A stretch of 45,623 nucleotides of DNA from Bifidobacterium breve (GTDB taxonomy: Bacteria > Actinomycetota > Actinomycetes > S36-B12), in NCBI GenBank assembly GCA_945901095.1, contig CAMDKQ010000004.1, forward strand, positions 1-45,623, in the 5' to 3' direction. Under the pieces are notes generated by a model, which was given only the letters and a program-made list of their open reading frames with translations, had not been told where the DNA came from and made no database searches. Shown here piece by piece: positions 7,813 to 45,198 of this stretch. Numbering within the stretch: the first letter of the stretch is position 1; the number at the start of each line of letters is the position of its first letter. A program made the translations under genes and the position numbers.

Positions 7813-8448
7813 TCATGACCCTGCTATGTCCCGCATCTGCTCGATCATGGCGCACAGCGCGGTCATCCCCAACTCGAACCCCGATTCGTCAATGTGCTTG
7901 CGCGGACTACTGCGAAGGGCTCGGCCGATCGCTGGGAACTGGGCGTCATAGGACTGCGCCGAGCCGATGAAGCCAGCACTGAACGGCTCCACGGCCGAGC
8001 CCAGCACCAAGGAATCGAGGAGTGCCATGACCGGCATGATCGAAGGTGCAGGTACCCCAAACCGCTCGAAAAAGGCTGCGATCGGCTCGTAAATTGCTAG
8101 CGCATAATCCTCGTTGATCGCCCGTGACACGATGATCGTCGCGGCAACATGATGGTTGCGGTAGCAGTTCAGGTAGCTCCTTGCCATGATGCGTAGGTCG
8201 CCGAGGTCCTCGCTGGCCGCAAGCACGCTCGTGTCAATGCCGGCGTTGATGCGTCTATGAACAAGGGTGATGACGTCGTCAATCCCGCTCACGTGCGCAT
8301 ACAGCGATGGGGCTTGAACGCCGAGTCGTGCAGCGAGAACGCGCATCGTGAGCGCAGACTCGCTCTTGGACTCGTCGAGGATTGCGAGGGCAGCCTCGCC
8401 GATGAGTTCGCGGGTGACCCCGGGTCGAGCAGTTGTTCTCAGCAACAC
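7813..8448 (-). CDS. TetR family transcriptional regulator
   Basis: N-terminal HTH 'ELIGEAALAILDES...LTMRVLAARLGVQAPSLYAHVSGIDDVITLV'; GTG at 8448 preceded by AGAGGAG preferred over the ORF-track start at 8529; divergent from potA. Confidence 0.88.
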   Translation of the reverse strand: MLLRTTARPGVTRELIGEAALAILDESKSESALTMRVLAARLGVQAPSLYAHVSGIDDVITLVHRRINAGIDTSVLAASEDLGDLRIMARSYLNCYRNHHVAATIIVSRAINEDYALAIYEPIAAFFERFGVPAPSIMPVMALLDSLVLGSAVEPFSAGFIGSAQSYDAQFPAIGRALRSSPRKHIDESGFELGMTALCAMIEQMRDIAGS

Positions 8449-8504
8449 GCTCGGCTGACTCCTCTGTGATGTTACGACTTGGTAAAGGACCAACCACGGT
8501 CTTC

Positions 8505-8517
8505 CTAACGTCGTTAG
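8505..8517. promoter_or_regulatory. Palindromic candidate TetR operator CTAACG-T-CGTTAG
   Basis: Perfect 6-bp inverted arms around one base in the tetR/potA divergent gap, overlapping a candidate -10 (TAGTCT, 8515-8520). Confidence 0.5.
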
Positions 8518-8562
8518 TCTGTGGGTCACGTGTGCTTGACGTCAACCATTTCGGAGGAACCC

Positions 8563-9657
8563 TTGGACGCTTCGGCTCCGGCGCTCAGCGTGCGGGACGT
8601 CACGAAGACATTCCAAACACCCGAGGGCGGCCAGATCAGCGCCCTCGATTCGGTGAGTTTGGATATCGCCGACGGATCCTTCATGGTGCTCCTCGGTCCC
8701 TCGGGATGCGGCAAGACGACCCTGCTGCGCTGCATAGCCGGCCTCGAGTCCCCAGACTCCGGACGGATCGACCTTCGGGGGCAACGCATCGACAACATGC
8801 CGGTTTGGCGTCGGCGGGTTAACACGGTGTTTCAGTCGTACGCCCTGTTCCCCCACATGACCGTGGCACAGAACATCGCCTTTGGACTGCAGATGGACAA
8901 GGTTCCCGGCGACATCATTAAGCGCAAGGTCGGCGAATCCCTCGACATGGTGCACCTCTCTGGCCTCGGCTCACGTAAGCCCTCTCAGCTCTCAGGCGGT
9001 CAGCAACAGCGCGTGGCTCTCGCGAGAGCCCTGGCCAAGGAACCGGAGGTCCTTCTTCTCGACGAGCCGCTTTCCGCGCTGGACCTTAAATTGCGCCGTG
9101 GCATGCAGTCAGAGCTCAAACGTCTCCAGCGCGAAACATCGATCACCTTCGTCCTCGTTACCCATGATCAAGACGAGGCGATGGCGATGGGTGATCAGGT
9201 GGCCGTGTTCAACGATGGCAGGATTGTGCAGGTAGGCGAACCTCGCGAGGTATATCTGCGCCCATGCAGCCGTTTCGTCGCCGACTTCATCGGCGAGGCG
9301 AATGTCCTCACGGGAGCCCTCGATACCTACGGTCTGGTCATTGAATCCGTGGGCTTTGTTCCACGCGATCGGCTGATGCCCGACACTCAGGCCGCCCTCG
9401 GTCAGGTTCACGTAGCCGTGCGCCCCGAGAACGTCTCTCTCCAGCTCGATCCGGTGGGGTCGGCCAAGATCATCGATGTGTCGTACGTGGGTGGCGACAT
9501 GAGGGTCGAGGCGGTTGCCGCGGCTTCAGGCACAGCAGTAAACGCGGCGGTAAGCATCGTCTCTCGGGTGCCATCGCAGGGGGTCCAGCCGCCCCGCATC
9601 GGCGACCGGGTCAGCGTCAGCTTCGCCGAGGGATCACTCACCGTGGTGGCCGACTGA
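8563..9657 (+). CDS. potA: Spermidine/putrescine-type ABC transporter, ATP-binding protein
   Basis: Walker A 'LLGPSGCGKTTLLRCIAGLE', signature 'LSGGQQQRVALARAL', Walker B 'EVLLLDEPLSALD', C-terminal TOBE region; TTG start at 8563 after TCGGAGGAACC. Confidence 0.92.
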   Translation: MDASAPALSVRDVTKTFQTPEGGQISALDSVSLDIADGSFMVLLGPSGCGKTTLLRCIAGLESPDSGRIDLRGQRIDNMPVWRRRVNTVFQSYALFPHMTVAQNIAFGLQMDKVPGDIIKRKVGESLDMVHLSGLGSRKPSQLSGGQQQRVALARALAKEPEVLLLDEPLSALDLKLRRGMQSELKRLQRETSITFVLVTHDQDEAMAMGDQVAVFNDGRIVQVGEPREVYLRPCSRFVADFIGEANVLTGALDTYGLVIESVGFVPRDRLMPDTQAALGQVHVAVRPENVSLQLDPVGSAKIIDVSYVGGDMRVEAVAAASGTAVNAAVSIVSRVPSQGVQPPRIGDRVSVSFAEGSLTVVAD

Positions 9658-10601
9658 TGAAGGCACCGTGGTCCGCCACGGCTCGGCAGCGACGTCAAGC
9701 CGGGCAGGGTTCCTGGTGGAGCGGACTTCCGGGCGTCGTGTATCTCATCGCGCTGGTGTTCCTCCCGCTTGTCATCATCTTCGTCTATTCATTCCTCAGC
9801 CGGGCGAAACTCGGGGTCGGGGTCAAGTGGCAGTTCAGCCTCACCCCGTACACCGAATTGCTCTTCAGCGAGTCCCTCTCAGGAGGACGATCCTTTGACC
9901 CGACGTACCTCCAAATCATCGCGAACTCCTTCTGGTACGCAATCATCACGAGCGTCGTCTGCCTCGTCCTCTCAATACCGATCGCGCTGTGGCTCGCGAC
10001 CCGTGCGCCCGAGCGCCGCACCGCCCTCGTCTTCGCCGTCACGATCCCCTTCTGGACGAGCCTGCTGATCCGCACGTACTCCTTCATCATCATCCTCAAC
10101 GACAACGGACCGATCAACGGACTTCTCAAGGGCATTGGCATCATTGACGAACCCATTGCGATGCTCTACACGCCGTTCGCCACCGTGGTCGGGCTCGTCT
10201 ACACGTTCCTTCCGTTCATGATCCTTCCGATCTACGCCAGTGCAGAGCGATTCGACTTCCGCTTGGCGGAAGCCGCTTACGACCTCGGTGCCGCAAAGTG
10301 GACAGTCTTGCGACGTATTGTCCTCCCCAGCATCAGACCCGGGATCATCGCCGGAATGGTCCTTGTCTTCATCCCCGCGCTCGGCTCCTACCTCGCTCCC
10401 GAACTCCTTGGCGGTGGCAAAACCTCAATGATCGCCAACGTCATCGCGGCCCAGTTCGGAGCCTCCCGCAACTGGCCATTCGGTGCAGCCCTGTCCGTGC
10501 TCCTCCTCGTCATCACCCTGCTTGTCCTGGTCATCTTCGCCGTCGTCGCAAAGCGTGCGAGTCGGGCGGCAGGCCGAGGTGGATGGGAGGCCCTCATATG
10601 A
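9657..10601 (+). CDS. potB: Spermidine/putrescine-type ABC transporter permease
   Basis: Multi-TM; EAA loop 'AEAAYDLGAAKWTVLRRIVLPSIRPGIIAG'; overlaps potA stop. Confidence 0.92.
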   Translation: MKAPWSATARQRRQAGQGSWWSGLPGVVYLIALVFLPLVIIFVYSFLSRAKLGVGVKWQFSLTPYTELLFSESLSGGRSFDPTYLQIIANSFWYAIITSVVCLVLSIPIALWLATRAPERRTALVFAVTIPFWTSLLIRTYSFIIILNDNGPINGLLKGIGIIDEPIAMLYTPFATVVGLVYTFLPFMILPIYASAERFDFRLAEAAYDLGAAKWTVLRRIVLPSIRPGIIAGMVLVFIPALGSYLAPELLGGGKTSMIANVIAAQFGASRNWPFGAALSVLLLVITLLVLVIFAVVAKRASRAAGRGGWEALI

Positions 10602-11434
10602 CGATGGACAGCATGCCGACGAGGGGTCGAAAGCGCCGACGAAACGGTGGGGTCGGCCCGGGACTGCGCGACTTCCCGACCTTCAAGGCCGTCTCATACC
10701 TCGTGTTCGTATTTCTGTACCTCCCTTTAGTCGTCGTCGTCGCATACTCGTTCAACTCAAACCGCGTCGTGAGCGTGTGGCGCGGATTTACCTTCTCGTG
10801 GTACTCCGAGGTGCTCGGCAACGACGACATCCAGCGTGCCCTCTTCAACTCGCTGAGAATCGGTGTCGTTGCCACCATTGTCTCCGTGGTGCTCGCCACC
10901 GGACTCGCGATCGGTTTGCTTACGATGGCTCGAGCCGGTCGTACCTTCGCATGGACCCTTATCGGCGCACCCCTCATCATCCCTGAGATCGTGTTCGCGA
11001 TCGGCACGCTCGCCCTGTTTGTCCAAAGTCGCATCCCACTCGGGGTCAATGCCATCACGCTGGCTCACATCGCCTTCTGCGTCCCGTTCGCACTCCTACC
11101 GATCCGAGCCCGGCTGCGTGGCGTCGACCCTGCGGTCTACGAGGCTGCCGCGGATCTCGGCGCGGGCGAGTTCACGATCTTCCGGCGCATGACACTGCCG
11201 CTCCTCGCACCGGGAATCGTCGCCGGTGCACTTCTCGCCTTCATCATCAGCCTCGACGACTTCATCGTGTCGTACTTCCTCGCCGGCCCTGGCGGCACCA
11301 CCCTGCCCGTCTACATCTTTGGGATGATCCGCAACGCTGTCACCCCAGGAGTCAATGCATTGTCCACCCTCATGCTCGTCGCGAGCATCCTCATCGTTTC
11401 ACTGTCCTATCTGTTGGCCCGAAAAAGGAGATAA
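10598..11434 (+). CDS. potC: Spermidine/putrescine-type ABC transporter permease
   Basis: EAA loop 'YEAAADLGAGEFTIFRRMTLPLLAPGIVAG'; ATGA overlap start at 10598; the ORF-track extension to 10298 is a shadow of potB. Confidence 0.92.
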   Translation: MTMDSMPTRGRKRRRNGGVGPGLRDFPTFKAVSYLVFVFLYLPLVVVVAYSFNSNRVVSVWRGFTFSWYSEVLGNDDIQRALFNSLRIGVVATIVSVVLATGLAIGLLTMARAGRTFAWTLIGAPLIIPEIVFAIGTLALFVQSRIPLGVNAITLAHIAFCVPFALLPIRARLRGVDPAVYEAAADLGAGEFTIFRRMTLPLLAPGIVAGALLAFIISLDDFIVSYFLAGPGGTTLPVYIFGMIRNAVTPGVNALSTLMLVASILIVSLSYLLARKRR

Positions 11435-11437
11435 GGA

Positions 11438-12592
11438 ATGATCGCAATGAAGACACGACGCGGATTCGCCGCAGCGTTCGCGCTGAGCGCAGCCAGCGTC
11501 ATGATCCTGGCCGGATGCGGAGGCGAGGCCACCCCGGCCGGTGCCGCCGCGACCGAGCCTGCTGCACCAGCAGCAAGTGAGGCGGCTGCGTCAGCTCCCG
11601 CAGCTGACTTCCCGACCGCAAACGGAGGTGAACTCAACCTCTACAACTGGACCGACTACATCTCGCCTGAGGTGCTCAAGCGCTTCGAGACCGAGACAGG
11701 CATCAAGGTCAACCTCGATAACTTCGACTCAAACGAGACCCTGCTCGCCAAGCTCCAGGCCGGTGGTGCCAACTACGACGTCATCGTCCCGAGTGACTAT
11801 ATGGTCGCCCAGATGATCGAACTCGGCTTGCTCGAGCAGGTGAATCCGGCTTCATTCCCCAACGGCCAGAACATCAAGCCAGCGTTCCTTGACGTCTACT
11901 TCGATCAGGGACGCGGCTACACGGCGCCGTACATGTACGGCACCACAGGCATCGCCTACGACCCCAGCAAGACCGGCGGGCCAGTCACGAGTTGGGCCGA
12001 CTTCTTCTCACCGAGCAGCCCTGCCGCCGGTAAAGTTGGCACACTCAACGATCAGGTCGAGGTCGTCCACGCGGCCCTGCGTGCCGTCGGCGCCCAGCCC
12101 TGCTCCACCGACAAGGCCGACTACGTCAAGGTCGAGAGCCTGCTCGCGGACTGGAAGCCAGGCGTTGCCGTCATCAACTCAGACGGTGTCATCGGCCGTA
12201 TGGCGAGTGGCGAACAGTCAATGCACATGATGTGGAACGGTGCCTTCCACCGAGCCAAGGCCGACAACGCTGGGCTCGAATACGCATTCCCGTCCGAGGG
12301 TCTCAACCTCTGGCAGGACAACTTCGCGGTGCCAGTAGGAGCCCAGAACGTTGACAACGCGAAGATCTTCATCAACTGGATGATGGATCCCGCAAACATC
12401 GGCGAGGCGACCAACTTCGTCGGCTACGACAACGGCATCACTGGTTCGGACGCCTTCATGGATGCCGAGATCGCCGGCGACCCAGCAGTCGTCATGTCGG
12501 CGGAAAACGCCGCTCTGGCGAAGCCGACCCCGGGTTGCTCCGTTGAGGCCATCGACCTGTACGACCAGGTCTGGACCACCTTTAAGAAGTAG
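11438..12592 (+). CDS. potD: Polyamine-type ABC transporter substrate-binding lipoprotein
   Basis: Lipobox 'VMILAGCGG'; 'LNLYNWTDYISPEVLKRFETETGIKV', 'MMWNGAF', 'EGLNLWQDNFAVPV' align with PotD ligand-site regions. Confidence 0.92.
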   Translation: MIAMKTRRGFAAAFALSAASVMILAGCGGEATPAGAAATEPAAPAASEAAASAPAADFPTANGGELNLYNWTDYISPEVLKRFETETGIKVNLDNFDSNETLLAKLQAGGANYDVIVPSDYMVAQMIELGLLEQVNPASFPNGQNIKPAFLDVYFDQGRGYTAPYMYGTTGIAYDPSKTGGPVTSWADFFSPSSPAAGKVGTLNDQVEVVHAALRAVGAQPCSTDKADYVKVESLLADWKPGVAVINSDGVIGRMASGEQSMHMMWNGAFHRAKADNAGLEYAFPSEGLNLWQDNFAVPVGAQNVDNAKIFINWMMDPANIGEATNFVGYDNGITGSDAFMDAEIAGDPAVVMSAENAALAKPTPGCSVEAIDLYDQVWTTFKK

Positions 12593-12729: not shown

Positions 12730-14367
12730 GTGAGCACGACCAGCCCAGGAAAGGTCACCCGCATCGAGAACGCCATCGTCTGGACCGGTCGGCAAATTCC
12801 CGGCACCGCTGATTACGCCGTCACCGATGCCATTGCCTTCGTCGGAGATCGCGTCCTCGCGCTCGGCCAAGCCGCACGCTCGATGGCAGCAGACCACGTC
12901 ATCGACGCTGAGGGCGGATTCATTTGCCACGCGTTCGGAGACGGCCATGTGCACTCGATCTTCGGCGGCCTTGAGCAGCAGTTCGCGCCGGTTCGGGGCC
13001 ATGGCGACCCGCAGGGGATCGCCAGAGCGGTCGGCGAGTGGGCCCGGGCCCACCCAGAGGTCCCCTGGATCAGGGGCGAGGGCTTCGACCATACGCTCGC
13101 GCCCAGTGGAATCTTCCACGCTGCCTGGCTTGATGCCGAGGTGCCGGACCGTCCGGTCGTCCTCCGGGCAACCGACTACCACACCGTCTGGGTGAACAGC
13201 GCCGCCCTGCGGCTCACGGGCTATGAGCGCGGCGTTACCCAGCCGCACGACGGGGAGATCGTCTGCGACGAAATGGGAGACCCGACCGGAACCCTGCGCG
13301 AGTGGGGTGCGTGGCGACCGGTCTACGACCTCATGCCCGAGGTACCCCTCGAGATGCGGATGGCCGCCATTGAGCACGCGGCTCGCTCATTCGCATCTTC
13401 TGGCCTCGCTTGGGTTCAGGATGCCTGGGTTGAACGCGCCGACGTCAATACCTGGATCGAGGCTTCCACTCGTGGTCTCCTCACCTTCCGCGCCGACCTC
13501 GCGCTCTGGGCCGATCCCAATTCGTGGCGAGATCAACTCGCCGGGTTCTCAGAGGACCGCGCACGGGTCGCTGCCCACGGCTCTCCTGCACTGTCGGCCA
13601 ACACGATCAAGTTCTTCGCCGATGGCGTTATCGAATCGGGCACGGGTGCGCTCCTTGAGCCCTACTGCGATTGCCCCCACTCAAAGGGCATGCCGAACTG
13701 GGATACCGCCGAACTCGCTCTGGCAGTCACAGCGATCGATGCCCTCGGATTTAATGCGCATATTCACGCAATCGGTGATGGGGCCGCGCGGATGGCTCTC
13801 GATGGGATTGAGTCCGCAATCATCGCCAACGGTCCGCGTGACCGACGGCCCGTCATTGTCCATCTCCAACTTGTCGATGATGCGGATCTGCCACGATTTG
13901 CGGCCCTCGGTGTTGTCGCCAACTTCGAGCCCTACTGGGCGAAGTTCGACTCCTGGCAGACGGAGTTGACGGCCCCAAGACTTGGTGAGCTGCGCACGAG
14001 TCGGCAGTACCTCATGAAGACCCTCGTTGATTCCGGAGCGACCGTCTCGTTTGGCAGCGACTGGCCGGTGACCACCTATGCCCCACTGGCAGGCATCCAG
14101 GTCGCGGTCAACCGCCGTATGTCAGCTGATCCGGTGGACGAGCCCTGGCTCCCGGGTGAGCGCGTCAGTGTCGAGCAAGCGCTTGCCGCCTACACCTCTG
14201 GGGTCGGCTGGCAGACCGCTCAGCAAGACGAAGGGATGCTCCGCCCTGGTGGACGTGCCGATGTGGTGTGGCTTGCGAAGGATCCTCGTGCCGTCGATCC
14301 GATGGCGATCGATGAGATAGCGATTCTGGGCACCTGGTCATCCGGCGTGCGGGTTCACGGGGGTTAG
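12730..14367 (+). CDS. YtcJ-type (Amidohydro_3) metal-dependent amidohydrolase
   Basis: 545 aa; 'FGDGHVHSIFGG' metal motif, 'TIKFFADGVIESGTGALLEPY', 'HIHAIGDGAARMALDGIE', 'VSFGSDWPVTTYAPLAGIQVAVNR'; GTG start. Confidence 0.88.
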   Translation: MSTTSPGKVTRIENAIVWTGRQIPGTADYAVTDAIAFVGDRVLALGQAARSMAADHVIDAEGGFICHAFGDGHVHSIFGGLEQQFAPVRGHGDPQGIARAVGEWARAHPEVPWIRGEGFDHTLAPSGIFHAAWLDAEVPDRPVVLRATDYHTVWVNSAALRLTGYERGVTQPHDGEIVCDEMGDPTGTLREWGAWRPVYDLMPEVPLEMRMAAIEHAARSFASSGLAWVQDAWVERADVNTWIEASTRGLLTFRADLALWADPNSWRDQLAGFSEDRARVAAHGSPALSANTIKFFADGVIESGTGALLEPYCDCPHSKGMPNWDTAELALAVTAIDALGFNAHIHAIGDGAARMALDGIESAIIANGPRDRRPVIVHLQLVDDADLPRFAALGVVANFEPYWAKFDSWQTELTAPRLGELRTSRQYLMKTLVDSGATVSFGSDWPVTTYAPLAGIQVAVNRRMSADPVDEPWLPGERVSVEQALAAYTSGVGWQTAQQDEGMLRPGGRADVVWLAKDPRAVDPMAIDEIAILGTWSSGVRVHGG

Positions 14368-14369
14368 GA

Positions 14370-15119
14370 ATGGCGCTCACCCCGGGCGAGGCGGACCGGC
14401 TGCTCCTGTACACCCAGGGGCTCCTCGCTCGTGAGCGACATGCTCGCGGACTTCGACTGAACGTCCCCGAGTCGACCGCGATCATCGCGAATGCTGTGTG
14501 CGAGGCCGCTCGTGACGGCAAGGATCTTGTGTCGGCGCGCGAGACCGGTCGCAGCGTTCTCGGCGCTGCCGATGTTCTTCCGGGGGTCGTTGAGATCGTC
14601 ACGGACGTGTCAGTCGAGGCGCGGTTCGACGACGGAACTCGACTCGTGGTCGTCCGCGACCCGTTCAGAACATCACACGAATCTTCAACGTCTGTAGTCG
14701 AATCACCGGCAATCCCATCGAGCGGTGTCATTCGCATCGAGAATTGCGCTCTGACGCCAATCGGTCTCACCTCGCACATCCATCTGGCCGAGGTCAACCC
14801 GCGGCTCCGTCTCGATCGCGAGGCGGCCTATGGCCACCGCCTGGCGATCCCCAGCGGCGACACCATCTGGATCCAACCGGGCGAGACCATCGAGCTTGGA
14901 ATCCAGCCGATCGCTGGGTCTCGAGTCGTCATCGGAAATACTGGGGTTATCGATGGATCCCTTGACGATCCCATCTTGCGCCGACGAGCACTCGACACTC
15001 TGCACGCCTGCGGGTACCTCGATACTCAAGCCCGGCCGGCAACGGGATCGCCGGCGGAAATGCCCCCGGCGGATGATGCCGTGAGCATGCTCATCCAGCA
15101 CCGACAGGCGAACCAATGA
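14370..15119 (+). CDS. Urease-like gamma-beta subunit fusion
   Basis: N-term 'LTPGEADRLLLYTQGLLARERHARGLRLNVPESTAIIANAVCEAARDGKDL...VLPGVVEIVTDVSVEARFDDGTRLVVVRDPF' matches urease gamma; C-term 'IENCALTPIGLTSHIHLAEVNPRLRLDREAAYGHRLAIPSGDTIWIQPGETIEL' matches urease beta. Confidence 0.92.
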   Translation: MALTPGEADRLLLYTQGLLARERHARGLRLNVPESTAIIANAVCEAARDGKDLVSARETGRSVLGAADVLPGVVEIVTDVSVEARFDDGTRLVVVRDPFRTSHESSTSVVESPAIPSSGVIRIENCALTPIGLTSHIHLAEVNPRLRLDREAAYGHRLAIPSGDTIWIQPGETIELGIQPIAGSRVVIGNTGVIDGSLDDPILRRRALDTLHACGYLDTQARPATGSPAEMPPADDAVSMLIQHRQANQ

Positions 15120-16786
15120 CAGCGCACCCTCGACCCTACGGGCCGATCCGCGGAGACATCGTCGACCTCGGTGACACAGGCCTACGACTCCGGATCACCA
15201 GTCGTGTCGACGACGAACACGATGAGTTCCGGGTCGGCTTCGCGAAGTCTGGCCGCGATGGCATCGGGCTTCGAGGGGCCACGACAGGCGACTCCTGCGA
15301 CCTCGTCATCACGAATGTCATCGTCCTTGATCCGGTGGACGGGGTGCAGGTCGCGAGCATCGGGATCCGCCAGGGCCGAATTTGCGGGATTGGCCGCGCC
15401 GGCAATCCTGATACGAGCGATGGCGTCGATCTCATCGTTGGGACGAGCACGGTGGTTATCGATGGTGATGGACTCATTGCGACTCCGGGTGGCATCGACA
15501 CCCATGTACACAGCCTGAGTCCGCGCGTCTTCGATGCAGAGATTTCTTCGGGAGTCACGACGGTGATAGGTCAGGAGGCCGGACCAATGTGGGGGGTCGG
15601 GCTCGGTTCACGCTGGGTCATTGACCGTGCACTGCGGGCAATGGACGCCTTCCCGGTGAACATCGGACTCCTCGGTCGCGGCTCATCCTCCAACCCGCAG
15701 TCAATCCGCGAATCCCTTCACGCCCATGCATGTGGTCTCAAGGTGCACGAGGACACCGGAGCGACCCTGCGAACCATCGACACCGCCCTTCGCATGGCGG
15801 ATGAAGCCGATGTTCAGGTCGCGCTCCACACCGATGGCCTGAACGAGACCCTTTCGGTGGCCGACACCATCGCTGTCATCAGCGGCCGAGCGATCCACGC
15901 CTTTCACGTCGAAGGGTGCGGAGGCGGTCATGCACCTGATGTCCTGCGTCTCGCCGGGCACGACCACATCTTTACTTCCTCCACGAACCCGACGCTCCCG
16001 TATGGGTTGAATGCTGTAGAAGAGCATCTCGACATGATCATGTTCTGCCATGGAATGGATGCGGACCGGGCGAGCGACGTGCGCATCGCACGCGCCCGAG
16101 TGCGCGCTGCGACGATGGCCGCCGAAAGTCGCCTGCATGACCTAGGGGTAATCCACATGACCTCCTCGGATGCTCAAGGTATGGGGCGGGCAGGTGAGAC
16201 CTGGTGGCGGACCTTCGCCCTAGCCGGGGTCGTCGCCTCCACCGATCCGGGGCGGGCCGATCGTTCAGAGGCGGATGACGACAATGAACGAATCCTTCGC
16301 TACCTGGCGAAGATCACCGTCAATCCGGCAATCGTCCATGGCATCGTTCATGAGGTTGGGAGGCTCGCACCCGGGTTTCTCGCCGACATAGCCTTGTGGA
16401 GGCCCGAGATGTTCGCGGCCAAGCCCTGGCTCGTACTCAAGGGCGGATTCCCAGCGTGGGGGGTGACCGGGGACCCAAATGCAAGCATCGACTCCGCCCA
16501 GCCCCTCATCCTCGCCGAGCAGTTCGGAGCGATTGGCGCGGCGCCGAGCGACCTGTCGTTCCTGATATCCAACAGCGAAGCATTGGCACAGGGCCCCGCG
16601 CCAATGGCACGGCGGGCGATCGCGACATCAGGCTGCCGGACAATCCGGTCAAGTGATCTTGTCAGACACAGTGAGCCGGGTGAGGTCCGAGTGTCCGCTC
16701 AGGGGGATGTGGTCACGTGGAACGGCGATACCCTCACCCTTGACCCAGTCCGCCAGGTGCCGCTCTCGAGGTTGCATTTCTGGTAA
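15116..16786 (+). CDS. Urease-like alpha subunit (divergent, catalytic residues retained)
   Basis: 556 aa; 'ATPGGIDTHVHS', 'GLKVHEDTGAT', 'VALHTDGLNE', 'HAFHVEGCGGGHAPD', 'STNPTLPY', 'MFCHGMD', 'MTSSDAQGMGR' match UreC motifs; ATGA overlap with the gamma-beta gene. Confidence 0.92.
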   Translation: MTAHPRPYGPIRGDIVDLGDTGLRLRITSRVDDEHDEFRVGFAKSGRDGIGLRGATTGDSCDLVITNVIVLDPVDGVQVASIGIRQGRICGIGRAGNPDTSDGVDLIVGTSTVVIDGDGLIATPGGIDTHVHSLSPRVFDAEISSGVTTVIGQEAGPMWGVGLGSRWVIDRALRAMDAFPVNIGLLGRGSSSNPQSIRESLHAHACGLKVHEDTGATLRTIDTALRMADEADVQVALHTDGLNETLSVADTIAVISGRAIHAFHVEGCGGGHAPDVLRLAGHDHIFTSSTNPTLPYGLNAVEEHLDMIMFCHGMDADRASDVRIARARVRAATMAAESRLHDLGVIHMTSSDAQGMGRAGETWWRTFALAGVVASTDPGRADRSEADDDNERILRYLAKITVNPAIVHGIVHEVGRLAPGFLADIALWRPEMFAAKPWLVLKGGFPAWGVTGDPNASIDSAQPLILAEQFGAIGAAPSDLSFLISNSEALAQGPAPMARRAIATSGCRTIRSSDLVRHSEPGEVRVSAQGDVVTWNGDTLTLDPVRQVPLSRLHFW

Positions 16787-16804: not shown

Positions 16805-17134
16805 TCAGAAGCGGATCTTCTCCAGGGCTTCAGCGAGAATTGCGGCGCCGTCCTCGTCCGACCGGCGTTCCTTCACATAGGCCAGATGGGTCTTGTAGGG
16901 CTCCACCTTCTGGGGTGAGGGGGGATTGGCTTGATCCGGTCCTGATGGCAGTCCGCAGCGCGGGCAGTCCCACTCCTCCGGGACTACGGCATCGGCCGCG
17001 AAACTTGGCTTGGACTCATGTCCCCTCGAGCACCAGTAGGAGACCCAGATGCGCGGGGCGGCATCGCCGCGCTCCGCCTCCCCCATCGGCCCAGCCCCAA
17101 CTCGGCTGCCACGAATCGCACTGCCTCCGGCCAT
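16805..17134 (-). CDS. rbpA: RNA polymerase-binding protein RbpA
   Basis: 'YWCSRGHESKPSFAADAVVPEEWDCPRCGLPSGPD...PYKTHLAYVKERRSDEDGAAILAEAL' typical RbpA. Confidence 0.93.
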   Translation of the reverse strand: MAGGSAIRGSRVGAGPMGEAERGDAAPRIWVSYWCSRGHESKPSFAADAVVPEEWDCPRCGLPSGPDQANPPSPQKVEPYKTHLAYVKERRSDEDGAAILAEALEKIRF

Positions 17135-25822: not shown

Positions 25823-28765
25823 CTATTTCACGACGGTTCGGGGTGCGCGAGCGGCCTTGGCAGGAACCTTGGCCGGAACCTTCGCAGGAGCCTTGGCCGG
25901 AGTTTTTCGCGGTGCCTTGGCCGGGGCCTCCGCAGTCAGCATGCCCGCGAGGAATTCGCCGGTGTAACTCCCGGGCGTGCCGGCGATCTGCTCAGGGGTT
26001 CCTGCCCCGACGACAAAGCCTCCACCCGACCCACCCTCAGGCCCCATGTCGATGACCCAATCCGCGGTCTTGATGACATCGAGGTTGTGCTCGATGACAA
26101 GGACGGTGTTGCCCTTGTCAACGAGTGAGTGGAGCACCCCGAGGAGTTTGCGGATGTCCTCGAAGTGGAGCCCGGTCGTCGGCTCATCGAGCACGTAGAT
26201 GGTGCGTCCGGTCGAGCGCTTCTGCAGTTCTGCGGCCAGTTTCACACGCTGGGCCTCGCCGCCCGAAAGGGTTGGCGCCGACTGACCCATGCGCACATAG
26301 CCGAGGCCGACGTCGACGAGGGTCGCGAGGTGGCGGGCAATCGGCGGAACCGCCGCAAAGAACTCGAGAGCCTCCTCGATCGGCATGTCGAGCGCCTCAG
26401 CAATCGTCTTCCCCTTGAATCGCACCTCGAGGGTCTCGCGGTTGTAGCGCTTACCGAGGCAGACCTCGCAGGGTACGTAGACGTCAGGTAGGAAATTCAT
26501 TTCGATCTTGAGGGTGCCGTCACCTGAGCAGGACTCGCAGCGGCCACCCTTCACGTTGAAGGAGAACCTTCCCTGGAGATAGCCGCGTACTTTCGCCTCG
26601 GGAGTCTCGGCGAAGAGTTTGCGGATGTGGTCAAAGACGCCTGTGTAGGTCGCGGGGTTGCTTCGTGGAGTGCGCCCAATCGGGCTTTGATCGACGTGGA
26701 CAACCTTGTCGACGTGCTCGAGGCCATCAACCCGCTTGTGTCGGCCGGGAACGATGCGGGCGCCATTGAGGTCCCGGGCGAGGACGTTGTAGAGGACGTC
26801 ATTCACGAGGGTTGACTTCCCGGAACCGCTGACCCCTGTCACCGCGACGAGGCATCCGAGCGGGAATGACACAGTGACGTCGCGCAAGTTGTGCTCGCGC
26901 GCACTGTGGACCGTGATCTCGCGATCCTGTCGAGGACGCCGGATCGCTGGAATCGCGATGGACCTTCTCCCGGTGAGGTACTGGCCCGTGATGGAGTCGG
27001 GGTGATTGAGGAGGTCGTCGACCGGACCGCTCACGACGATGTGGCCGCCGTGCTCACCGGCGCCCGGGCCGATGTCGACCACCCAGTCGGCGACTCGAAT
27101 GGTGTCCTCATCATGCTCGACGACGATGAGGGTGTTGCCAAGGTCGCGTAGCCGAATGAGGGTCTCAATAAGTCGACGATTATCGCGCTGGTGGAGCCCG
27201 ATGCTCGGCTCGTCGAGAACGTACAGCACTCCGACCAGCCCCGAGCCGATTTGCGTGGCGAGCCGGATTCGCTGCGCCTCACCGCCCGCCAAGGTGGCGG
27301 ATGGCCGATCGAGGGAGAGGTAATGCAGGCCGACGTCGACCAAGAACTGCAGTCGCTCATTCACCTCCTTGAGGACCCGGCTCGCGATCGCTGCATCACG
27401 GCTCGACAGTACGAGTCCACCGAGCATGGCGGAGAGTTCACCGATTGGCAGGGCCGCAATCTCGGCGATCGAGTGACCCGACATGGTGACCGCGAGGGTG
27501 AGCGGCTTGAGCCGCGTGCCACCGCAGCCCTGACACGGTACCTCTCGCATGAAGCCTTCGAACTTCTCGCGGACGGCGTCACTTTCCGACTCCGAGTGCC
27601 GCCGCTCGATGTAGGGGATGACTCCCTCATAGGTTGTCGTATACGACCGCGTGCGTCCGTAGCGGTTCTTGTACCTCACAAGCACCTCGGTCGGAAAGCC
27701 GAAGAGGATCGCCTTGCGAGCCTTTGCAGGCAGATCCGACCACCGGGTATTCATGTCAATCTCGAGGTCCTCGCATAGCGCCTCGAGCAGCCTGCCGAAG
27801 TAGTCCGATACGTTTCCACCCGCCCATGGCGCAATGACGCCCTCGTTCAAGGTGAGATCGGGATTCGGGGTGACGAGCTCCTCATCGACCTCCCTGCGGG
27901 TGCCAAGACCGGTACACACCGGGCAGGCACCGAAGGGCGAGTTGAAGGAGAAGGATCGCGGCTCAAGTTCCTCGAAGGAGAGCCCATCCTTGATGCACGC
28001 GAGGTGCTCACTGAAGACCCGCTCCCGGTTCGGGTCGCCCTCCTCGAGGTCGACGAAATCGAGGACGACAAGTCCACTGCTGAGCTTCAGCGCCGTCTCA
28101 ACTGAGTCGGTGAGACGGCGGCGCGAGTCGGGCTTCACCGCGAGACGGTCGACCACCACCTCGATCGTGTGCTTCTCCTGCTTCTTCAGCGTCGGCACCT
28201 CATCGAGGCCAACCACCGTTCCATCAACGCGGACCCGCGAGTAGCCCTGGGTCTGCAACTGGCGGAAGAGCTCGCCGTACTCCCCCTAACGCTCGCGCAC
28301 CACCGGCGCGAGGACCTGGAATCTGGATTCAGCAGGCAGTTCGAGGACCTGATCGACGATCTGCTGTGGTGTCTGGCGCGCGATGACCGCGCCGCACTCG
28401 GGGCAGTGCGGCACGCCGATGCGCGCATACAGGAGCCTGAGGTAGTCATAGACCTCAGTGATCGTGCCGACCGTCGAACGGGGATTGCGTGATGTCGACT
28501 TCTGGTCGATGGACACTGCGGGCGACAAACCCTCGATGAAGTCGACGTCGGGCTTGTCCATCTGGCCGAGGAACTGGCGCGCATAGGCCGACAGGCTCTC
28601 GACATAGCGGCGCTGACCCTCGGCGAAGATGGTGTCGAAGGCTAGGCTCGATTTCCCCGAACCGGATAGCCCGGTGAACACGATGAGTGCATCCCGCGGC
28701 AAGTCAAGGGAGACATCCTTAAGATTGTGCTCGCGGGCACCTCGTACGACGAGCCGGTCTCCCAC
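25823..28765 (-). pseudogene. uvrA: Excinuclease ABC subunit A interrupted by an in-frame TAG (28286-28288)
   Basis: N-terminal ORF 28286..28765 ([40 protein letters not shown]...[10 protein letters not shown]) and C-terminal ORF 25823..28258 share the same frame; reading through gives ...[27 protein letters not shown]..., continuous with canonical UvrA. Confidence 0.9.
25853..25930 (-). repeat. Degenerate short tandem repeat coding for the UvrA K/A/P tail
   Basis: Plus strand 'ccttggcaggaaccttggccggaaccttcgcaggagccttggccgg...' encodes [27 protein letters not shown] at the uvrA C-terminus. Confidence 0.7.
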
Positions 28766-29965: not shown

Positions 29966-30955
29966 TCACCCTTCCGCTGAATCTTCATGCCCGCCCGTGA
30001 GTCGTCCCGCATGCGCGGTAGCCGTCGGATCCTTGCGGACCTTCAGCCATGACGCGATGACCACAACGACGAGCACGATCGCGATGACACCGAGTGACAT
30101 TTCAGTCGAGATCTTCGGCACGCCGGGGAACTGCTCGTGGAAGAAGGTGAGAACAAGCTTGACGCCGATGAAGACGAGAATGACCGCGAGTCCGGTCGAG
30201 AGATAGATGAGCTTGTCAAGGAGACCCTTGAGGAGGAAGTACAAGGCTCGCAGGCCAAGAAGCGCGAATGCATTTGCGGTAAACACCAAGTACGGGTCCT
30301 GGGTGACGCCGAATGTCGCCGGAATTGAATCGAGCGCGAAGAGCAAATCGGTGGCACCGATCGAAATCATGACGAGAAGGAGCGGGGTCGCCACCCGACG
30401 TGCGTCAATCCTGGTAAACATGCGCGTTCCGTCGTACTCGTCACTGAAGGGGACACGGGACCGGACGCGTCGAATGATGAAGTTGTCCATCGGGTCGGGA
30501 TCCTCATTGCGGTGCCGGGCAAGTTGGATCCCCGTCCAGATGAGGATCGCACCGAAGATCACGAAGGTGAAGGCGAATGCCGAGATGGCTGCCGCGCCGA
30601 TCGCGATGAAGATCGCACGGAAGATGAGTGCAAGCACGACACCAAAGAGCAGCACTCGCTGGTGCAGTGCAGCCGGAACCGCAAACTGCGCAAGGATGAT
30701 GATGAAGACGAACAGGTTGTCGACGCTCAGTGACTTCTCGACGAGATAGGCAGCGAAGTACTCCGTACCGACGGCGCTCCCCTGCCACACGATGAGCGCG
30801 ACGCCGAACGCAATCGCGACACCGACGTAGAACACCGACCAAAGTGCCGCCTCGCGGAACTTCACCTCATGAGGCTTGCGGCTCACCATCACGAAATCCA
30901 AGGCGATGAGCAGGAGGATCCCCACGACCGTTATGGCCCACAGGGTCAGTGACAT
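29966..30955 (-). CDS. TerC family integral membrane protein (copy 1)
   Basis: '[34 protein letters not shown]', '[42 protein letters not shown]'. Confidence 0.93.
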   Translation of the reverse strand: MSLTLWAITVVGILLLIALDFVMVSRKPHEVKFREAALWSVFYVGVAIAFGVALIVWQGSAVGTEYFAAYLVEKSLSVDNLFVFIIILAQFAVPAALHQRVLLFGVVLALIFRAIFIAIGAAAISAFAFTFVIFGAILIWTGIQLARHRNEDPDPMDNFIIRRVRSRVPFSDEYDGTRMFTRIDARRVATPLLLVMISIGATDLLFALDSIPATFGVTQDPYLVFTANAFALLGLRALYFLLKGLLDKLIYLSTGLAVILVFIGVKLVLTFFHEQFPGVPKISTEMSLGVIAIVLVVVVIASWLKVRKDPTATAHAGRLTGGHEDSAEG

Positions 30956-30956
30956 T

Positions 30957-31907
30957 TCATTTCTCCCTTGTTGATCGAGCTGATATGTAGCTCCAGATGA
31001 TGGTGACGGCGAGGACGGTGACGATCACGACGAGGGAAATCCAGACCGGGATGACAGGTACCGGTAGCGCGGTCGTCTCATGGATCGCCTGCAGGATGAG
31101 CTTGATTCCGATGAATCCGAGGATGATCGCGAGTCCCTTGCCGAGGTGCTTCAGGCTCCCGAGCAGGCCCTTGAGCAGGAAGAAGAGTTGGCGCAGGCCC
31201 ATGAGTGCGAAGGCGTTCGCGGTGAACACAATGTAGGCCTCGCTCGTAATCCCGAAGACCGCCGGGATGCTGTCGAGGGCGAAGAGTAGGTCGGTGGTAC
31301 CAATCGCGAGCATGACGAGCGCCATTGGCGTGAGCATCCGATGGCCCGCGACGATCGCCGTCAGCCTCGTCCCATTGAACTCGGTTGAGGTTGGAAAGCG
31401 CCGCGCAACAAAACGGACGAGGCCATTGCCGCCCGGGTCAGGCTCAGCATCCTCCTTGGCGAGCCATACCTTCCACGCGGTGAACAGCAGAAAGGCCCCA
31501 AATATGTAGAAGATGCCAGAGAAACGCGCGATGAGCTCCGCACCGACGACGATGAGGATGCCGCGCAGGATGAGGGCGATAACGATGCCGACGAGGAGCA
31601 CGCGATGCTGATAGGCAGCAGGCACCGCGAACGAGGTCATGATGACGAGGAAGACAAACAGGTTGTCGACGCTGAGCGAATACTCGGTGAGATAGCCGGC
31701 GATGAACTCACCCGAGTAGGCGACGCCGAAATACCAGCCGATGAACACGGCGAATAGCGCTGCAAGCCCAACGTAGAGGATGACCCAACGGGTCGCCTCC
31801 TTGGGGCCGAAGGGGTGCGGGCGCCGATCGACGATCACTAGGTCAAGTGTGATGACCCCGATGATTCCGATGATGGTTACCGCCCACAGCCATGCCGGAA
31901 CGATCAC
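30957..31907 (-). CDS. TerC family integral membrane protein (copy 2)
   Basis: '[34 protein letters not shown]', '[42 protein letters not shown]'; ATGA overlap with uvrB. Confidence 0.93.
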
Positions 31908-39387: not shown

Positions 39388-39493
39388 CATCGTTGCCGCA
39401 CCTCCGTCGTCGATTCTGGTTATGCTGCCGAAATCTTCGAATGAACGCGCGATGAACGACGTCCACGAGCACGAATGCTGCAAGGAGGGGTCA

Positions 39494-40861
39494 GTGCCAA
39501 GAGGCTTCCAGTTGATGACTGGATCCACGAGCGAAGGCGGCAGGATGAGTAATCCGATGGCGACCGGGAAGGTTGCTCGCCGGCAGGGCTATCGCCGCGG
39601 CATAGCCTTCGCCCTCGCACTCTTCGCCGGATTGCTCATGGCGATCGCGCCCGCGATCGCCGCCGACGCCGGGCTCAAGGGCACGGTTAAGGATCCCACG
39701 AGCGGTACGGGCATCGCCGGGGTCGTCATCACTGCCGAGGGCGATGGCTTCAGCGAATCGGCAACGACCGGCGCCGACGGCAAGTGGGCGATCGCGCTGC
39801 CTGGCGAGGGTACCTACACCGTTTCCCTGGACACGACTTCGCTTCCATCGGGCCTCGGGCTCGCCGACCCCGAGCGAGGAACCACCTCAATTGACGCCTA
39901 CTCGGGCCAGATAAAGACGATTCTCTTCCCCCTCGGTGACGGCTCAGCCCCAGCCCCGGACTCGGAGGCGGCGTCCAAGTGGAGCCAGATCCCGCAACTC
40001 ACCATTGACGGGATCATCTTCGGCATCGTCATCGCCCTCGCCGCCGTCGGACTCAGCCTCGTCTTTGGAACCACGAAGCTCACAAACTTCGCTCACGGCG
40101 AGCTCATCGCACTCGGCGCCCTCCTCACGTTCTTCTTCAGTTCGATCGTCGGTCTTCCACTGGTGATCGCGATCATCATCGCCGTCCTAGCATCAGCATT
40201 CATCGGTGGGTGGGTGCAGAACCGGGTGCTGTGGAAGCAGTTGAGAATGAGGGGTACGGGCCTGATCGCGGCACTGGTCGTCTCGATCGGCCTCGGCTTC
40301 TTCCTTCGATACTTCTTCCTCTTCGTCTTCGGCGGACAAACACGGCAGTTCGATCAGTTCGCCGGCCAGGCCGGTATTGAGATCGGCCCGGTCCTCATTA
40401 CCCCGAAGGACCTCATCGCCAGCTTCGTCGGCATCATCCTCATCGGTCTCACCACCTACTGGCTGCTGCGCACAAAGGCCGGCAAGGCAACGCGCGCCGT
40501 AGCGGACAACCCTGCGCTCGCGTCCGCTTCCGGGATCGAGGTCGAGAAGGTGATCTCAACGGTGTGGGTCCTCGGCGCCGGGCTCGCTGCCTTCTCGGGA
40601 GTCATGATCGGACTCCAGTCCGGTGTGAGCTGGTACATGGGGTTCCAAGTGCTGCTCCTCGTCTTTGCGGGGACAGTCCTCGGCGGACTTGGCACCGCAT
40701 TCGGTGCCATCATCGGATCGTTGATTGTCGGCGTTCTCATCCAACTGTCGACCCTCATCATTCCGACCGAGCTCAAATACGTCGGCGCGCTCGTCGTGCT
40801 GATTCTCATACTCCTCATCCGGCCAGAGGGCATCCTCGGCCGGCGTGAGCGGATCGGCTAA
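39494..40861 (+). CDS. livH: Branched-chain amino acid ABC transporter permease with extracytoplasmic N-terminal carboxypeptidase-regulatory-like domain
   Basis: C-terminal LivH fold ('IIFGIVIALAAVGLSLVFGTTKLTNFAHGELIALGAL'); N-term signal plus 'GLKGTVKDPTSGTGIAGVVITAEGDGFSESATTGADGKWAIALPGEGTYTVSLD'; GTG start at 39494 after AAGGAGG. Confidence 0.9.
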   Translation: MPRGFQLMTGSTSEGGRMSNPMATGKVARRQGYRRGIAFALALFAGLLMAIAPAIAADAGLKGTVKDPTSGTGIAGVVITAEGDGFSESATTGADGKWAIALPGEGTYTVSLDTTSLPSGLGLADPERGTTSIDAYSGQIKTILFPLGDGSAPAPDSEAASKWSQIPQLTIDGIIFGIVIALAAVGLSLVFGTTKLTNFAHGELIALGALLTFFFSSIVGLPLVIAIIIAVLASAFIGGWVQNRVLWKQLRMRGTGLIAALVVSIGLGFFLRYFFLFVFGGQTRQFDQFAGQAGIEIGPVLITPKDLIASFVGIILIGLTTYWLLRTKAGKATRAVADNPALASASGIEVEKVISTVWVLGAGLAAFSGVMIGLQSGVSWYMGFQVLLLVFAGTVLGGLGTAFGAIIGSLIVGVLIQLSTLIIPTELKYVGALVVLILILLIRPEGILGRRERIG

Positions 40862-43759: not shown

Positions 43760-45064
43760 TCAGGAGGTGGGAACCGTTCCGGTCACGAACTCATCGAAAC
43801 GAGGAACGTACTTGTCGTTCGCCTCGTACTCGTAGACGCCCATGGTGGCGATGCTGGGGTCGCCATTGTCAGCGAACTCAACCGGGCCGGCCTGGCCCTC
43901 GTAGTTGAAGTCGGTGCCAGCATCAAGGAGCGCCTTGCAGGAAGCGAAGTCGGTGCAGTTCTCGCCGTCCTTCGAGACACCCTGAAGTGCGGCGGCGATT
44001 GCGGCGCCGTCGCAGGACTTCGCGACCTCCATGCCGAGAGCAATGAGGATGACTGCGTCGTATGCCTCAGCTGCGTACGGGAATTCGGTCAGATCCGGAT
44101 TGACTGTGAGCAACTCGCCCTGCAGCTCCGCGCTCGCTGCAACACCCGGGAGGGTGCCCTTGGTACCGACCATGATGCCCTTCGGCAGGTCGGCAAACGC
44201 CTCCTGTGAGAGGTTGCCATCAACGAGGTACAGGGGAACGGTGTCCGGACCGATGCCCTGCTTGATGAGCTCCTGAACGATCTTCACCGACTCCTCGAAA
44301 CCGATGACGGCGATCGCACCGGGCTTGCTCGCCTTGAGCTTGCCGACCTCAGCACTAAACTCGGCGGCCTGCGGGTTGTAAATGACCTTCGCGGTCACGG
44401 TGCCACCACCTGCGGTGAAGTTGACATCAAGTGCATCGGCCAGCCCGGTACCGTAGGAATCGTCCATCGCAATGATGCCGGCCTTCTCGACGCCCGCATC
44501 GAGCATGAGCGAGCCGAGCACAGCGCCCTGGAAGAGGTCCGAGGGGGCGGTACGGAAGTAAAGACCGTTGTCTGCGTAATCCGAAAGAGCCGGCGAGGTG
44601 TTCGCCGGGGAGAAGTGGATGACGCCCGCACCGGTGATCTTGTCGATGACGGTGAGCGAAACACCCGAGGATGCCGCACCGATGATCGCGGAAACTCCAG
44701 CAGCAATGTGGCTGTCAGCGGTCTGCGATGCAATGTCAGTGCTGGTATCGCCCGAGTCACCCACGAGGTTCTCGAGCGGGCTGCCGAGGACGCCGCCTGC
44801 TGCGTTGATCTGTGCGACAGCAAGATCGACGCCCGCGAACTCGGGTGGGCCGAGGAATGCAAGGTTGCCCGTCTGCGGCAGCATCGTACCGATCTTGCAG
44901 GCTGCCGTGACTGCTGCCTCGCTGGCTGCGGCGCTCGGCGCCGCACTGCTTGCAGCCGGTGCTGCACTCGATGCCGCTGTCTCGCTGCTGCCACCGCATG
45001 CGGCGAGCGTGAGCGAAAGAGCACCGAGCACGGCGGCCGACTTAAGGACCGTAGTGCGCTTCAT
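43760..45064 (-). CDS. livK: Branched-chain amino acid ABC transporter substrate-binding lipoprotein
   Basis: Lipobox 'LSLTLAACGGS', Ala/Ser linker, 'ACKIGTMLPQTGNLAFLGPPEFAGVDLAVAQINAAGGVLG'; start at 45064 after AAGGAGAAAC. Confidence 0.93.
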   Translation of the reverse strand: MKRTTVLKSAAVLGALSLTLAACGGSSETAASSAAPAASSAAPSAAASEAAVTAACKIGTMLPQTGNLAFLGPPEFAGVDLAVAQINAAGGVLGSPLENLVGDSGDTSTDIASQTADSHIAAGVSAIIGAASSGVSLTVIDKITGAGVIHFSPANTSPALSDYADNGLYFRTAPSDLFQGAVLGSLMLDAGVEKAGIIAMDDSYGTGLADALDVNFTAGGGTVTAKVIYNPQAAEFSAEVGKLKASKPGAIAVIGFEESVKIVQELIKQGIGPDTVPLYLVDGNLSQEAFADLPKGIMVGTKGTLPGVAASAELQGELLTVNPDLTEFPYAAEAYDAVILIALGMEVAKSCDGAAIAAALQGVSKDGENCTDFASCKALLDAGTDFNYEGQAGPVEFADNGDPSIATMGVYEYEANDKYVPRFDEFVTGTVPTS

Positions 45065-45198
45065 GTTTCTCCTTGGATACATGTCAACGACGACTCTTGT
45101 CATCGCGGTGGGTTGATTCTATGACGGCTTCTGCTACCGAGGGGTAACCGCGGAGCGTTTCGGTGCCCCTTCGTAACCGATCCGTTATAAACAACGAG

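Follow-up and report, generated by a model that had tools for sequence, protein, structure and literature searches.

A urease-like gene pair with a remodelled active site and no UreD, UreF or UreG: a possible hydrolase of substituted ureas

Introduction

Urease is usually regarded as a nickel enzyme with a single substrate that needs dedicated chaperones, and fused small urease subunits are also known in Helicobacter. Gene clusters encoding ure(AB)C without accessory genes have been described in Streptomyces coelicolor and Streptomyces avermitilis (PMC2492869) and in cave Streptomyces (PMC5489568). SCO5525-5526 were labelled 'urea-utilizing' in a study that also gave SCO5527 as homologous to a gene of the arginine decarboxylase pathway (PMC3293853). 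The second urease-like Streptomyces locus that was mentioned in a sequence-only reading of the DNA studied here is real, and no functional test of any ure(AB)C pair was found in the literature. In Helicobacter, the second urease UreA2B2 has an iron cofactor (PMC11541087).

In the present study, a ureAB-ureC pair of a freshwater actinobacterium was analysed in a window of 45,623 nucleotides, the whole stretch of DNA under investigation. Judging from its residues and its gene neighbours, the encoded enzyme probably splits a urea-like molecule other than urea.

Methods

The window is contig 4 of a metagenome-assembled genome (MAG; 3.33 Mb, 92 % complete, 338 contigs). The comparison set consisted of 118 genomes, its own and those of relatives, of which 49 by count have an orphan-type ureC, that is, one without linked accessory genes. 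The genome search for maturation genes covered UreD, UreF and UreG. Residues were read from alignments with Klebsiella UreC, from an alignment of 48 UreC sequences (the window and 47 others), and from one of 79 (13 chaperone-linked, 66 orphan). The UreC tree was made with IQ-TREE and is unrooted; 200 bootstrap trees were inspected. Neighbouring genes were called with a codon-usage caller; plain ORF tiling gave antisense false neighbours. In the tally of 42 Nanopelagicales loci, Amidohydro_3 genes were counted upstream of ureAB and deiminase homologues anywhere in the genome. An AlphaFold model of UreC from a restricted alignment (mean pLDDT 38) was not used.

Results

The two genes are coupled by an ATGA overlap at 15116-15119, and their products are, as had been proposed, a UreA-UreB fusion and a UreC-like protein. 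Pfam domains of all three urease subunits are present: Urease_gamma (PF00547, 3.5e-32) and Urease_beta (PF00699, 2.4e-20) in the fusion, with Urease_alpha (PF00449, 5.1e-28) and Amidohydro_1 (PF01979, 1.5e-43) in UreC. Among NCBIfam models, the fusion scores slightly below the cut-off of PRK13192 for bifunctional gamma/beta subunits (226.8 bits against 243), and UreC passes the broad alpha subfamily NF009686 (644 bits, cut-off 354) and fails the urease alpha equivalog TIGR01792 (546.7 bits, cut-off 680). Between congeners, ureC has dN of 0.02-0.10 against dS of 0.46-1.33, and is therefore under strong purifying selection. A pseudogene is ruled out by this ratio and the intact frames, and phage cargo by the absence of any PHROGs match.

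The pair ends an operon, following potABCD (8521-12592) and an Amidohydro_3 gene that stops 2 bases upstream of ureAB (table below). The convergent rbpA directly after ureC is confirmed. The PotD/PotF-like protein retains an N-W-T-D-Y motif, and the closest solved relatives of the Amidohydro_3 protein are uncharacterised metal-dependent hydrolases. The importer in the operon is of the Pot type, and NCBIfam models identified no urea-specific transporter there. The divergent TetR-type gene is retained at 79.6 % in a congener locus (L127). A promoter and terminator scan gave results near chance, with no promoter signal above it.

Features of the operon and its flanks in the window
Feature	Coordinates	Strand	Remarks
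TetR-family regulator (start approximate), divergent from potA	7813..8529	-	Weak TetR match, 8.2e-07
PotA-like ABC transporter ATPase	8521..9657	+	NCBIfam PotA 6.3e-108, below equivalog cut-off
PotB-like permease	9657..10601	+	NCBIfam PotB 1.5e-69, below equivalog cut-off
PotC-like permease (start approximate)	10598..11434	+	NCBIfam PotC 1.5e-68, below equivalog cut-off
PotD/PotF-like solute-binding lipoprotein	11438..12592	+	Polyamine-binding proteins are the nearest of solved structure (3ttl, E 2.7e-56)
Amidohydro_3 (YtcJ-like) metal-dependent hydrolase	12730..14367	+	PF07969 4.8e-84
ureAB-like gene	14370..15119	+	249 aa; urease gamma homologue (residues 1-98) fused to a urease beta homologue (121-196)
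ureC-like gene	15116..16786	+	556 aa; homologue of urease alpha with an intact metal site and a remodelled flap and pocket loop
rbpA, convergent, directly 3′ of ureC	16805-17134	-	PF13397

Elsewhere in the window, uvrA is seemingly split into two frames on the reverse strand (25823-28258 and 28289-28765), a 159-aa N-terminal part and an 811-aa remainder; this is likely to be a frameshift or an assembly error. Two adjacent similar membrane proteins (29966-31907, reverse strand) have the appearance of TerC-family paralogues. At 39422-40861, the forward strand encodes a branched-chain ABC permease of LivH type that carries an additional N-terminal domain (GLKGTVKDPTSGTGIAGVVITAEGDG...); LivM/G/F-like genes follow, and a binding protein is encoded at 43760-45103 on the opposite strand.

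The searches detected no UreD, UreF or UreG in the window, as had been noted, or in the rest of the genome, which has a single ureC and a single ureAB. All three are likewise absent from 47 of the 49 related Nanopelagicales genomes with the orthologue; of the 34 with a completeness of 90 % or more, 32 lack them. One of the two exceptions has a canonical ureC with its set (G483) and the other a UreG fragment at a contig edge (G487); weak UreG/HypB-like matches occur in a few relatives. As a control, UreF and UreG scored over the cut-off in 16 of 27 test genomes, and canonical sets were recovered in G479 and G483. An assembly gap as the cause of the missing chaperones is rejected on the evidence of the 47 genomes, and the lack of UreD, UreF and UreG is a trait of the family as well as a gap in this genome. 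Maturation by chaperones encoded elsewhere, which the sequence-only reading had allowed for, is contradicted for this genome and for the 47 by these results. Amidohydrolases with a carbamylated lysine commonly assemble without dedicated chaperones, therefore the loss of UreD, UreF and UreG need not mean a loss of activity.

In a second orphan group, from other classes (f16 and f48), UreF and UreG are also absent. Streptomyces-type genomes carry a second ureAB-ureC, with UreC 54-58 % identical to that of the window, alongside a canonical ureABCFGD; the term paralogue, which had been applied to the window gene, is thus right for Streptomyces and wrong for the window genome, where ureC stands alone. 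Since the canonical chaperones are present in the same genome for most Streptomyces orphans, maturation in trans may occur there. In one Streptomyces-like genome (G172), an intact orphan ureC is accompanied by a broken canonical ureC; UreF is missing, and UreG has a weak match far below the cut-off. The related loci are from freshwater records, some named Nanopelagicales in their titles, on which this placement is based. Public MAG records titled Bifidobacterium breve contain the loci L113, L114 and L128, with UreC 85-96 % identical to that of the window, and these titles look mislabelled.

In the tree, chaperone-linked and orphan UreC are parted by one branch with support of 100/100, present in 100 % of the bootstrap trees, and an earlier tree agrees. 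The window UreC groups with the orphan set, apart from every chaperone-linked UreC sampled, and the window pair therefore shares with the orphan ure(AB)C the clade, the fusion plus alpha layout, and the lack of linked accessory genes. Because the tree has no root, it is compatible with either one or two clades of orphans, and does not distinguish whether chaperones were lost or gained. The Helicobacter structure 3qga, which lies outside the tree, matches at 457 bits, against about 489 for the Klebsiella chains.

The metal and catalytic residues previously assigned to H130, H132, K209, H211, H238, H264, C311/H312, R328 and D352 are found there in the alignments. The ligands of the binuclear metal site and the carbamylated lysine (H130, H132, K209, H238, H264 and D352) are all present. 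Eleven positions are invariant among the 48 UreC (H130, H132, K209, H211, E212, D213, H238, H264, H312, R328 and D352), with C311 varying, and the metal ligands and acid/base residues are unchanged across the 79.

The surroundings of the metal site are different. All 13 chaperone-linked UreC have V318-C319-H320-H321-L322 and W222. Of the 66 orphans, none has H321, a single one has V318 and 16 have C319; the window, with F-C-H-G-M in its flap, keeps the Cys. The pocket loop at 155-178 has 24 residues in ten of the linked UreC, 23 in one, and 21 in two of fusion type. The orphan loops are shorter, with 20 residues in the clade of the window and 13 in that of f16/f48. In place of TGPAxGTxATT the window has AGPMWGVGLG, in a loop four residues shorter than that of Klebsiella. 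Not all of the changes are universal, since W222 is kept among the orphans by the f16/f48 group, and T249 and A363 are retained in orphan UreC from nonribosomal peptide synthetase (NRPS) clusters.

The neighbours of the orphan pair recur across lineages. A PAD_porph deiminase-family gene adjoins ureAB-ureC in Streptomyces-type loci, three f1 loci, L150, L073 and L080, and is one gene away in L155; by lineage, such neighbours occur in the Streptomyces type, the f1 genus g248, f82, G209 and G007. The linked deiminases retain a Cys-containing GGGxHC motif, and most score below the agmatine deiminase cut-off. Around a single orphan pair in L072 (G353:C19), four PAD_porph paralogues lie inside 19 kb. 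Pot-type transporters adjoin the pair in 11 f1 loci, most f81 loci and two f16 loci (L076 and L083). In six f81 loci (L158 and L160-L164), ahy-ureAB-ureC lies next to potABCD, genes for an AAT-family enzyme and an FAD oxidoreductase, and a diol/glycerol dehydratase set, which suggests a larger catabolic island.

The window genome has no deiminase homologue, and an Amidohydro_3 gene is upstream of ureAB instead, as it is in 27 of the 42 Nanopelagicales loci. Amidohydro_3 only is found for 22 of these loci, a deiminase only for 14, and both for five; one is cut, with a deiminase, and none has neither. Outside this tally is G510, a genome that shows no deiminase and whose partial orphan ureC is situated at the edge of a contig. 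Deiminase homologues are present in 23 of the 49 genomes with an orphan ureC, compared with six of the 69 without. Fisher tests gave p=3e-7 for the mutual pattern of Amidohydro_3 and deiminase and p=3e-6 for deiminase with orphan ureC, but these values ignore kinship and overstate the evidence, as the tree permits only three independent pairs. On these pairs, which are on supported branches, the direction was consistent and the result not significant (underpowered). AguB did not score over the cut-off in any of 37 genomes, and its low scores were not discriminating; other N-carbamoylputrescine hydrolases, such as AguY or generic nitrilases, may be present.

On three Streptomycetaceae plasmids (L170, L171 and L172; NZ_CP109047, NZ_CP109401 and NZ_CP108786), ureAB-ureC lies within NRPS clusters, with a phosphotransferase gene and a downstream gene that is annotated as a 2OG-Fe(II) oxygenase on one of the three. 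Directly upstream of the pair, all three plasmids encode an uncharacterised 528-aa protein with a weak B12-binding match.

Discussion

A different urea-like or guanidino substrate, suggested before, gains support from the remodelled flap and pocket and from the neighbourhoods. The lack of UreD, UreF and UreG, the altered pocket, and the polyamine-uptake neighbours together make a urea-like substrate other than urea probable. The reaction indicated by the reshaped pocket, by polyamine-type uptake and by a frequent partner enzyme for guanidine-to-ureido conversion is the hydrolysis of a substituted urea. With a probability of roughly 0.55, the pair would encode a chaperone-independent (UreAB)-UreC hydrolase of a ureido, possibly a guanidino, compound rather than of free urea.

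The PotABCD-type importer would take up a cationic nitrogen compound, although Pot-type binding proteins differ in ligand, and the Amidohydro_3 enzyme would convert it. The (UreAB)-UreC complex, assembled without UreD, UreF or UreG, would be built like urease, its binuclear metal site having a carbamylated lysine and its flap an acid/base histidine, and could free NH3 and CO2 from the ureido end to leave an amine. In other lineages, the agmatine-deiminase homologue may supply the ureido compound by turning a guanidine into a urea group; N-carbamoylputrescine would be the simplest candidate substrate. As the window genome has no deiminase homologue, the ureido link there is drawn by analogy, through a putative role of the Amidohydro_3 gene.

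The retention of all metal and catalytic residues would also suit a true urease whose metal is loaded without UreDFG and whose substrate is free urea, perhaps a product of guanidino degradation upstream. Nitrogen-scavenging ureases are common in freshwater bacteria, and the iron-cofactored second urease of Helicobacter is a precedent (PMC11541087). Against this, the orphans have lost the flap His, most of the flap Cys and the pocket loop of the sampled chaperone-linked ureases, and the operon has a Pot-type importer with no urea-specific transporter identified. The pair also occurs in NRPS clusters, an unlikely place for a nitrogen-scavenging urease. Hydrolysis of free urea is therefore considered unlikely.

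An ordinary nickel urease would require chaperones that are missing from the assembly, too diverged to be found, or replaced by unknown or HypAB-like proteins. The incompleteness and many contigs of the MAG, the fast evolution of the UreD family, and the weak UreG/HypB-like matches in a few relatives could be read in this way. However, the absence in 47 of 49 genomes, with controls detected, and a pocket change that tracks chaperone absence make it very improbable. If the urease-fold enzyme instead acted on a group that is neither ureido nor guanidino (an amide or a cyclic imide, for example), its substrate would be better indicated by the neighbouring Amidohydro_3 and NRPS genes. The lack of a deiminase homologue in the window genome, the additional enzymes of the f81 clusters, and the NRPS contexts fit such a group, but the adjacency of deiminases in several lineages, and their presence in the genomes of loci without Amidohydro_3, would be left unexplained; this too is improbable. 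Hydrolysis of a substituted urea is the preferred reading.

It is tentatively proposed, at a little under even odds, that the orphan pairs are a new class of chaperone-independent, urease-fold hydrolases for N-substituted ureas, which remove carbamoyl or guanidino nitrogen from polyamine-like compounds taken up by freshwater and soil actinobacteria and have been recruited into NRPS biosynthesis. If so, neither urea nor nickel nor UreDEFG would be obligatory for an enzyme of urease architecture. A conserved branch that has the metal site and lacks both the chaperones and the canonical pocket would demonstrate reuse of the fold, and would be a natural example of a carbamylated binuclear site that is assembled without chaperones. 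The annotation as urease would then be wrong for many ureC genes of Streptomyces and of freshwater MAGs, and estimates of urea use in lakes and soils would be biased as a result. The orphan enzymes may also open a way of converting agmatine-like compounds into amines and, in NRPS clusters, may act as a new kind of tailoring enzyme.

Comparison with known systems

The window pair shares with Klebsiella aerogenes urease the fold family, the metal ligands, the carbamylated-lysine position, and flap His320, Arg336 and Asp360. Unlike Klebsiella UreABC/UreDEFG, it is in a genome without UreD, UreF or UreG and is below the TIGR01792 cut-off; the Klebsiella flap V-C-H-H-L is F-C-H-G-M in the window, and the loop GPAAGTHATTCTPG is replaced by the shorter GPMWGVGLG. 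Helicobacter UreA2B2 (3qga in the PDB) sets a precedent, being a second urease whose metal is not nickel, but is a urea hydrolase of gastric species, unlike the enzyme proposed here.

AguB is a nitrilase-superfamily enzyme. AguY is of the amidase family, and its role was inferred from adjacency to aguA (PMC12283126). Both share the activity proposed for the window enzyme, hydrolysis of N-carbamoylputrescine, and neither has the metal-dependent urease fold.

Streptomyces SCO5525-5526 is likewise a gamma-beta fusion with an alpha subunit, in a cluster without accessory genes, and the Streptomyces-type loci analysed fall in the same supported clade as the window pair. Whereas the Streptomyces ure(AB)C has a deiminase homologue as neighbour and usually a canonical ureABCFGD elsewhere in the genome, the neighbours in the window are potABCD and Amidohydro_3, and no further urease is present. 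A bare ure(AB)C arrangement had already been described in Streptomyces, under the name of urease; its remodelled active site and its guanidino and polyamine context appear to be new.
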